This document shows positions 57,861 through 60,999 of a stretch of 64,000 nucleotides of DNA, one piece after another; position 1 is the stretch's first letter, and the number at the start of each line of letters is the position of its first letter. This DNA is from Isosphaeraceae bacterium EP7. Lineage in GTDB: Bacteria; Planctomycetota; Planctomycetia; Isosphaerales; Isosphaeraceae. Made by a program: the position numbers and the translations under genes. Where the stretch lies: positions 4,599,174 through 4,663,173 of the forward strand of contig CP151667.1 of assembly GCA_038400315.1 (NCBI GenBank). Reading direction: 5' to 3'. The notes below the pieces were generated by a model that saw only the letters and a program-made list of their open reading frames with translations, ran no database searches and had not been told where the DNA came from.

Positions 57861-59378
57861 TCAACGTGAAAGGATGCGCACCTTGAAGCCCAGGGCGCGA
57901 GACAGGGCGACGAGCTCGCCGAAGATGTCACCGTAAGCGACGGCGACATGGTTGCTCATGTAATGCGCCATGATGGTCTCCTTCGAGCAGCCGAGGTCGG
58001 CGGCCATGAACGGCCACTGGCGGGTGGTGCCCTTCCACCAAGCTTCGCGGACATCTTCGGGGAGGGCGACCGACTCGCCGCGTCCGATGTCCATGACGAG
58101 CTCGCCCTGACGGTCGATCCAGGCCCTCGACCAGGTGAGCGGGCCGGGCAAGCTCTCGCCCGCGAAGGTGCCGCCGGCGACCGGGAAGTAGCCCGAAGGC
58201 TGCCTGTAGCTGTGCACGCCGCTCAGGCTGGTGATGTCGTGGTTGAACGCGTAGGCGCCGCAGCTCCCGGAATTCAGGAGAACCCAGAGGAACCGACCTT
58301 CATGCTCGGCCCCCCAGCGCACGTCGTGGAAGAGGACCGAGCCGGGCAGGCCCTTCGCCTCGAGGATGCGTTTCATCAACTCCATCGGCACCAAGTTCCC
58401 CTGGTCGGCCTCGGTGCTGGTGATGACGACGTGGCCGTTGCCCTCGGGGCGGGCGTGGGAATTGAGCAGCCCCTCGCTGAAATCGCTGGGGGGAAGAGCC
58501 TTGATGAGGCCGAGCTGATATTGCCAGCCCAGGCAGTCGGCCTTGAACTCGGCCATCAGGTCGAGCACGGCCAGGTAGCAGCGGAGCTGGTCGCGGGTCG
58601 ACTGGGGGGTGAAGTCCTCGGCGTCTTGCTCGCGCCAGTGGAAGGTGACGCCCTTCTCATTGACGAACTTGAACGCGTCTTCCACTCGGGCGTCGGCCAC
58701 CAGCTGGGCACGCTCGATGAGCCAGGCCTGGTCGACCTTGTGCTCGCTGAAGCCGATGGGGTAGAGCAACCGGGGCCCGAAATAGCCGTTGATCATGCCC
58801 ATCGACGTGTCGCCCAGCATCAGGGCGAGCACGCGTTTGCGGCGGATCTCGGCGTGCACCGTCTCGGCGAGTGCGATGGCCTCGGGGGTGAGGGCCGCGG
58901 TGTGTTTGATCTCGGACTCATCGTAAACGATCCGGCCGGTGGTGCACCACTCGTCGAGCCGCTCCATGAACTGTGCGTCGGCGGTCCAGTCGGTGCTGTC
59001 AGTCCAGGCCCTCGACGCGTGCCTGCCGACGCTTTCCAGCGAGGCCCCGGTGTTGAGGAGGGCGACGAGGCCGGGCCAGGTCCCCGAGAAGTTCGAGGCC
59101 AGGAGCAGCGGGTTGTCCTTGCCGACCACGCCGTCGACGGTGTGCGGGGCATACGCCCAGTGGACAAAGACGCCGACCATCGGGTCGTCGATCGGTCCGA
59201 GCTTACTGATCGCCTGGTCGGGGCGGGTGAGGTAGCCCTCGACCTGATACGGAGTGCGTCCCAGCTTCTTCAGCGCCGAGACGAGTTGCCCGGTCGTCTC
59301 CCTGGACTGCTCGAGGGCCCATTCATTCGGCTTAGCCCGATAATCACCGGGCCAGAAAACGGCGACTTTCTTCGACAT
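57861..59378 (-). CDS. L-fucose/L-arabinose isomerase-like protein
   Basis: A 505-residue cytoplasmic protein resembling the fucose isomerase family (ketol isomerases of deoxy-hexoses). The N-terminal Rossmann-like half begins 'KKVAVFWPGDYRAKPNEWAL'. The C-terminal half has 'VVITSTEADQGNLVPMELM', 'VLFHDVRWGAEHEGRFLWVLLNSGSCGAYA' and the terminal 'ETIMAHYMSNHVAVAYGD', whose Glu, Asp and His match the metal-site pattern of the family. The substrate may be fucose, rhamnose-like or another sugar. It lies 3.4 kb beyond the microcompartment operon on the other strand and could feed it with a ketose, after phosphorylation by a kinase not in this window. Family placement is moderately sure; substrate is inference. 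Confidence 0.65.
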   Translation of the reverse strand: MSKKVAVFWPGDYRAKPNEWALEQSRETTGQLVSALKKLGRTPYQVEGYLTRPDQAISKLGPIDDPMVGVFVHWAYAPHTVDGVVGKDNPLLLASNFSGTWPGLVALLNTGASLESVGRHASRAWTDSTDWTADAQFMERLDEWCTTGRIVYDESEIKHTAALTPEAIALAETVHAEIRRKRVLALMLGDTSMGMINGYFGPRLLYPIGFSEHKVDQAWLIERAQLVADARVEDAFKFVNEKGVTFHWREQDAEDFTPQSTRDQLRCYLAVLDLMAEFKADCLGWQYQLGLIKALPPSDFSEGLLNSHARPEGNGHVVITSTEADQGNLVPMELMKRILEAKGLPGSVLFHDVRWGAEHEGRFLWVLLNSGSCGAYAFNHDITSLSGVHSYRQPSGYFPVAGGTFAGESLPGPLTWSRAWIDRQGELVMDIGRGESVALPEDVREAWWKGTTRQWPFMAADLGCSKETIMAHYMSNHVAVAYGDIFGELVALSRALGFKVRILSR

Positions 59379-59663
59379 GACGGCGACCCTTTAAGCGGAA
59401 CTCGGCCCGGCCGCTCGCTCGGCGGGCCTGGCCGATGATGCCACGTCGGCCCCGTCAATGGAACGACCCCGGCAGGCCAATCGGGCCAACCGGGGTCGGT
59501 TCTGATTCAAAGTCCGATCCGGTCGCGTGATCGCGATGGAGGCGGATCGGTCGATCCTCAGGGCCAGTGAGCCGTCTTCGCGACGTGCCCCGAGTCCGGC
59601 CGGCGGATGTCTGTCCGCGGCGAGGGACCAGGAAGCCGATCGCGTGCGGCCGGCCGGCCCATA

Positions 59664-59753
59664 TTATTTCTTGCGATGACGGATGCGGCTCCGCATCCTC
59701 CGCTTCTTCCGACCGACCTTGCGGCGACCCTTTCCTCGACGACGACTGGCCAT
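59664..59753 (-). CDS. Very small, very basic protein (29 residues), possibly a ribosomal or nucleic-acid-binding factor
   Basis: An unlisted 29-residue gene on the minus strand: ATG at 59753 to TAA ending at 59664. The product begins MASRRRGKGRRKVGRKK and ends MRSRIRHRKK; more than half its residues are Arg or Lys. A strong ribosome site GGAGAGG precedes the ATG by about 4 nt. The pattern of basic blocks recalls the AURKAIP1/COX24 (bS22/mS38-like) small ribosomal proteins, which are also about 30 residues in bacteria. That identity is my inference; the open frame, start and Shine-Dalgarno sequence are directly visible. It stands alone between two minus-strand genes and is too short for most gene finders. 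Confidence 0.8.
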   Translation of the reverse strand: MASRRRGKGRRKVGRKKRRMRSRIRHRKK

Positions 59754-59909
59754 GCGACCTCTCCAGGGCGATTCGAAGGGCGAATCATGCGGGCGACGAA
59801 AGCTCGAAGGCCTCGTCCGGGATAGTCTCAGAGCGTAACCGATTGGGCGGCCAGACTCAAGGTGAAGGGGCCGACGATGCGAGGAGCGGGGTTCGTCTGG
59901 CCGGCCGCA

Positions 59910-60839
59910 TCACCGGGGCGAAACGCCCTGGGCCCGCCAGTCGACCCCCGACAACCGCGCCAGAGCCAGGATTAAAGACTGGGTTCCCAGCCGTCCGTCG
60001 CCGTGGGCTTCCACCGCCCGATAAAGTTGCTGAGCCAGGGCCAGGCCGGGGAGTGAAAGTTTCAGCCGGCCCGCCTCGGCCAGGGCGATCCCCATATCTT
60101 TGAGGAAATGCTCGACGAGGAAGCCGGGGTCGAAGTTGCCCGCGATCATGCGCGGGGCGAGGTTGGACAGGCTCCAGGACCCGGCCGCGCCACTGCTGAC
60201 GCTTTTCAGGACCGTCTCGGGATCCAGCCCCGCTTTGTAGCCGTAGAGCAGCGCCTCGCAGACGCCGACCATGTTGGTGGCGATCAGGATCTGATTGACC
60301 ATCTTCGTGTGCTGGCCCGCGCCGGCCGACCCCTGGTGGACGATCGTCTTGCCCATCGCCTCGAACAGGGGCATCAGGAAGTCGACGGCCTCGGTATCTC
60401 CCCCGATCATGATCGAGAGTCGTGCTTCCTTGGCCCCGATGTCGCCTCCCGAAACCGGCGCGTCAACGGACCGGACGCCCTTCGCCTTTGCGGCCTCGGC
60501 GATGTCGACGGCCAGGGTCGGCTCGCTCGTCGTCATGTCCACGAGCGTGGAGCCGGCCGAGGCACCAGCGAGCGTCCCATCATCCCCGAGGGTCACCTGC
60601 CGGACATCCTGCGGGTAACCCACGATCGTGAAGACGACGTCGGAGGCCTGGGCGACCTCCTTCGGGTTGCCGGCCGCCTTCGCCCCCTTCTTGATGAGTG
60701 ATTCCAGCTTCGACGGGCTCCGGTTGAAGACGGTGGCCGAATACCCCGCGTCGATCAGGTGGCCGCACATCGACGAGCCCATGACCCCGGTGCCCACCCA
60801 GCCGATGCGCGTCTGTCCCGGTTTCGCTTGACCCGGCAT
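59910..60839 (-). CDS. NAD(P)-dependent beta-hydroxyacid dehydrogenase (3-hydroxyisobutyrate / tartronate semialdehyde reductase family)
   Basis: A 309-residue oxidoreductase. The nucleotide-binding motif is '[13 protein letters not shown]' and the substrate motif '[20 protein letters not shown]'. The catalytic Lys lies in '[13 protein letters not shown]', and a C-terminal helical domain contains '[12 protein letters not shown]'. Enzymes of this family reduce tartronate semialdehyde or oxidise 3-hydroxyisobutyrate; the exact substrate cannot be read from sequence. The start at 60839 has AGGAGAG 6 nt upstream. It is divergent from the following gene. Confidence 0.92.
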
Positions 60840-60999
60840 GGCGGACTCTCCTGCAGGCTTCATCGAGGTCGAATTCGAGCCGGCGAGAACCTCAGGTCGG
60901 GATCTCGCTCACCGCTCGCAGGTTCGTAAGATACGGACTAGAGCCCTTGAATTCCACGGCAGGCCCCCTGTTCGACACCTCGATCCGGAGGTCCGACGC

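Follow-up and report, generated by a model that had tools for sequence, protein, structure and literature searches.

Results

A short basic gene with its own ribosome site

The window analyzed here is a 64,000-nucleotide stretch of the genome of Isosphaeraceae bacterium EP7 (contig CP151667.1). On its minus strand, at positions 59664..59753, lies a small gene with an ATG start and a TAA stop that encodes a 29-residue basic protein (MASRRRGKGRRKVGRKKRRMRSRIRHRKK). Four bases (TCGC) 5' of the ATG there is a Shine-Dalgarno-like site, GGAGAGG (59758..59764, minus strand); the sequence 5' of the ATG on this strand is CTGGAGAGGTCGC. A preliminary description of this DNA had proposed a full gene with a ribosome site at 59664-59753. 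These coordinates were exact, the minus strand being absent from that description, and the site (GGAGAGG-TCGC-ATG) is conserved in relatives. The consensus kept in relatives is GGAGA[AG]CGC-ATG; their remaining upstream DNA is unrelated, and nothing is kept downstream of the stop.

The gene is flanked on its 3' side by a fucose-isomerase-like gene (57861-59378, minus) and on its 5' side by a 2-hydroxy-3-oxopropionate-reductase-like gene (59910-60863, minus), with intergenic regions of about 285 and 155 bases, respectively. Searching the whole genome revealed only this copy. Scanning near the gene recognized no sigma-70-like promoter and no intrinsic terminator. A few bases 3' of the stop (window positions 59648-59659) there is a GC-rich self-complementary run, GGCCGGCCGGCC, with no T-run after it, which is not conserved in relatives.

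The open reading frame is a conserved protein-coding gene

Since 99 open reading frames (ORFs) of at least 25 amino acids overlap the 8 kb around the gene, a 29-residue ORF is by itself no evidence for a gene. The check set by the preliminary description, amino-acid conservation in related genomes, was run, and the gene withstood it: a full-length or near full-length copy was found in 57 of 58 related genomes (E 2e-9 to 4e-4), and the sole genome without a copy is a 68%-complete assembly. Within the same family, 24 genomes representing 15 genera encode the identical 29-residue protein, by 24 distinct DNA sequences. Among these copies the first, second and third codon positions vary in 4, 0 and 27 of the 29 codons, respectively, with all four variable first positions representing synonymous arginine changes, and the conservation ends at the ribosome site and at the stop codon. 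Amino-acid identity among the copies is 100% in the gene frame as compared to 56-86% in the other five frames, four of which contain stops in some of the copies. Elsewhere in the class, other families use ATG, GTG or TTG as the start codon at the same position, which fits a genuine start.

Short ORFs are common in a GC-rich genome, and one could imagine an ORF without a product, conserved on account of an element in the DNA or RNA. However, the changes are limited to the synonymous positions of exactly the gene frame, and the start, the stop and the ribosome site are all retained; the codon-position pattern and the six-frame comparison refute such a reading, to which we attach a vanishingly small probability. 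The small ORF is thus a real, very strongly conserved, single-copy protein-coding gene, most likely overlooked due to its shortness.

The encoded protein contains 18 lysine or arginine residues out of 29 (62%), no acidic residues and no cysteine, with a pI of 12.0 and a mass of 3.7 kDa. AlphaFold2 predicts a single helix (residues 8-28, mean pLDDT 80) for a 30-residue relative; short basic peptides are frequently predicted to be helical, so that this prediction is weak evidence. Across the class, particular Arg, Lys, Gly and His residues do not vary. Mean pairwise identity within the family is 97.8% for the small protein versus 84.6% for the ribosomal protein bL36 of the same genomes, and the identity between families is 72% versus 77%.

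Distribution and genomic context

Members of the protein family are 25-31 residues long. Named matches were all in planctomycete-labelled records, from Isosphaeraceae (Singulisphaera, Aquisphaera, Paludisphaera, Tautonia), Pirellulales and Planctomycetaceae; several of these records are metagenome bins, and their species names could be incorrect. Across 294 genomes sampled evenly from the phylum, a match was present in every one of the 21 that belong to the same class. An iterated profile (A1 to A4), searched within the phylum, was used to reach more distant relatives, and retrieved shorter proteins in other planctomycete lineages (MAKPRRRRKIGSKKRRARWKVRHKIS, MAFKPRRRRKIGSKKRRMRKLMRKKK, MASGKKTGRGRRKIGSKKRRARRRRRKKRGK and MRKKHRGRRKLGQKKRRARKKRRQKK); overall, about 41 genomes of the sample match at E <4e-4. 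Weak matches above approximately E = 0.001 fell mostly inside larger frames or contained stops, and were counted only where a short ORF with the core could be read. This core, common to all branches, is RRK[ILVM]GxKKR, and a basic tail follows it. Profile comparison shows kinship between the Planctomycetia branch and the others, with none of 200 column shuffles scoring as well. In one other class a match was found in just 144 of 317 genomes, and therefore the gene was either lost or changed past recognition in many lineages of that class.

A conserved operon was sought across the family and none was found; in most genomes the neighbors are unrelated to translation. Some Planctomycetaceae have the gene in a trmD-rplS-yraN cluster, about 1.6 kb downstream of rplS, and the trigger factor gene follows further on. 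The neighborhood in the other class is often fixed: a RACo-like ferredoxin gene lies 150-1575 bases downstream, and at 400-1500 bases upstream, in divergent orientation, there are genes for a small protein of about 90 amino acids without a Pfam match and for an ECF sigma factor, the latter gene facing the small gene. Neither the rplS-cluster context nor the ferredoxin/ECF sigma context settles the function.

Comparison with known tiny ribosomal proteins

No Pfam or NCBIfam model matched any of 12 diverse members, even at E = 1, and a PDB sequence search with the protein and two profiles matched no chain. We conclude that this is a new family of tiny basic proteins, probably ribosomal.

The preliminary description had suggested kinship with AURKAIP1/COX24 (bS22-like) proteins. 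The small protein shows the length of about 30 residues, the Lys/Arg content of 55-65% and the predicted helix that characterize bS22. In bacteria, proteins of the bS22/mS38 family are 28-33 residues long, 55-65% basic and helical, and their gene is often unannotated (PMC10618245, PMC10085706); the same 55-65% Lys/Arg has been reported for bS22/eL41 (PMC10085706). Indeed, the gene for Borrelia bS22 was unannotated and found by translated search, and more such proteins are expected (PMC10618245). Unlike bS22, the small protein has no K-M-x-K-H-K-like core and carries RRK[ILVM]GxKKR instead.

Searching 59 related genomes with PF08213 (COX24_C) gave no match over the cut-off, which one control genome did exceed. 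In the phylum sample PF08213 was over the cut-off in 10 of the 294 genomes, belonging to other planctomycete families, and the proteins found there (for example MSSVIKKRRKKMNKHKHKKLRSRMRHKSKRKK) are ordinary bS22 that look different from the small protein. The phylum therefore contains both bS22 and the small-protein family, in different genomes of the sample; no genome has both, which is not significant (chance probability about 0.2). Kinship was evaluated by hhalign profile-profile scores against column-shuffled controls. For the small protein against bS22, 11 of 200, 189 of 300 or 75 of 300 shuffles were as good, depending on the member set, as compared to 0 of 200 for the positive control, in which the Actinobacteria-type and Bacteroidota/Borrelia-type branches of bS22 were aligned. 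A PDB search with canonical bS22 queries recovers the solved bS22 and mS38 chains. With no PF08213 match over the cut-off, no Pfam or NCBIfam match, and profile scores within the shuffled range, there is no support for placing the small protein in AURKAIP1/COX24 (bS22), as the preliminary description had suggested. A literature search, with most subscription papers outside it, retrieved no paper naming both planctomycetes and bS22, and a search for planctomycete ribosome structures retrieved none.

Kinship with eL41/eS32 was likewise unsupported, with hhalign scores not above the shuffled controls. The best subset was the branch from the other class (..KKRRARWKVRHK), whose alignment to archaeal eL41 (..KKGRMRWKWIKK) is weak, 29 of 300 shuffles being as good (not significant). 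eL41 resembles the small protein in its length of about 25 residues, single helix and Arg/Lys richness, but contains RRLKR motifs and lacks a conserved glycine at its center. bL36 (PF00444) is also a tiny, basic protein encoded by a core gene, with comparable conservation in the same genomes, but has a conserved Cys/Cys/Cys/His set, whereas the small protein has no cysteine.

bTHX is another basic protein of similar size (about 26 residues), embedded in 16S rRNA. It has been reported from Isosphaera pallida, and its gene is mostly located apart from ribosomal operons (PMC3353972). The THX model did not match the small protein, and identity with bTHX can be rejected since 10 of 21 relatives carry a separate bTHX gene (TIGR04560, over the family cut-off) located elsewhere than the small gene. 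In the window's own genome no bTHX was found over the curated cut-off. Given this patchy occurrence, members of one family may differ in the composition of their ribosomes.

Discussion

A core, single-copy gene that is strongly conserved in its lineage, as found here, is what one expects of a ribosomal protein gene. Because the gene is core and single-copy, and its product nearly invariant, very basic and preceded by its own ribosome site, a ribosomal subunit buried in rRNA is the best explanation, and we infer, with reasonable though far from full confidence, that it makes a small structural protein of the planctomycete ribosome. The planctomycete ribosome-associated factor of the preliminary description thus persists as the best reading, now on a size and a charge typical of tiny ribosomal proteins rather than on bS22. 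Also supporting it are the rplS-adjacent location in some Planctomycetaceae and the combination of no fixed neighborhood across the family with an own ribosome site, as for bTHX (PMC3353972). Against it stand the lack of any solved ribosomal protein with a matching sequence in the PDB, the translation-unrelated neighbors in most genomes, and the other class, in which 144 of 317 genomes have a copy.

In the proposed mechanism, the peptide would insert after its synthesis into a groove of ribosomal RNA, where nearly every side chain would contact a phosphate or a base, and would stabilize the subunit in the manner of bS22, bTHX, bL36 or eL41. Such contacts of almost all side chains could explain the near-total invariance of the protein. 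The leading candidate site, which we propose tentatively and at well under an even chance, would be the pocket formed by 16S h2/h27/h44/h45 and 23S H68, which houses bS22 in some bacteria and eL41 in eukaryotes and archaea.

As for the identity of such a ribosomal protein, we see somewhat less than an even chance that it is an undescribed one, unrelated to bS22, bTHX and eL41 and fixed in the Planctomycetia and in several other planctomycete lineages, which either uses an rRNA site that no known bacterial protein uses or independently replaces bS22/eL41 in the pocket beside the decoding center. It is unlikely that the small protein is instead a diverged but genuine homologue of AURKAIP1/COX24 (bS22, mS38) in the same small-subunit pocket: its length, charge and predicted helix are like those of bS22, its C-terminal RSRIRHRK resembles the RSRMRHKSK of a canonical bS22 from another family of the phylum, and the two never occur together in the sample, but none of the relatives has a PF08213 match over the cut-off and the alignment to bS22 stays inside the shuffled range, a range from which the two bS22 branches are clearly separated. 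The same low probability applies to a protein that came to occupy the bS22/eL41 pocket by convergence, or through a kinship too old to see. bS22 and eL41 occupy this same pocket (PMC10618245, PMC10085706) yet cannot be aligned to each other, 91 of 200 shuffles being as good; since they fail the very test that the small protein fails, its lack of similarity does not exclude this site. The weak alignment of the other-class branch to archaeal eL41 points in the same direction, but it is not significant, and a helix of this kind could fit other rRNA grooves.

The charge of the small protein would suit any nucleic-acid binder, and planctomycetes have condensed nucleoids. A non-ribosomal function, as a nucleoid-compacting peptide of the protamine-like or histone-tail-like type or as an RNA-binding peptide acting with RNase P, SRP or tmRNA, nevertheless seems quite improbable to us: sequences of the protamine type accept exchanges between Lys and Arg and differences in length, unlike the Arg, Lys, Gly and His positions fixed here across the class.

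That a gene kept residue for residue in many genera is absent from two curated libraries suggests that the list of known core genes for the phylum is incomplete. If the protein is ribosomal, the bacterial ribosome would gain one more protein, and an unassigned helical density is predicted in any planctomycete 70S map. Together with bS22 and eL41, the family would then also make a third test case of how different basic helices are recruited into rRNA grooves. The profiles built in this analysis could be used for annotating the small-protein family.
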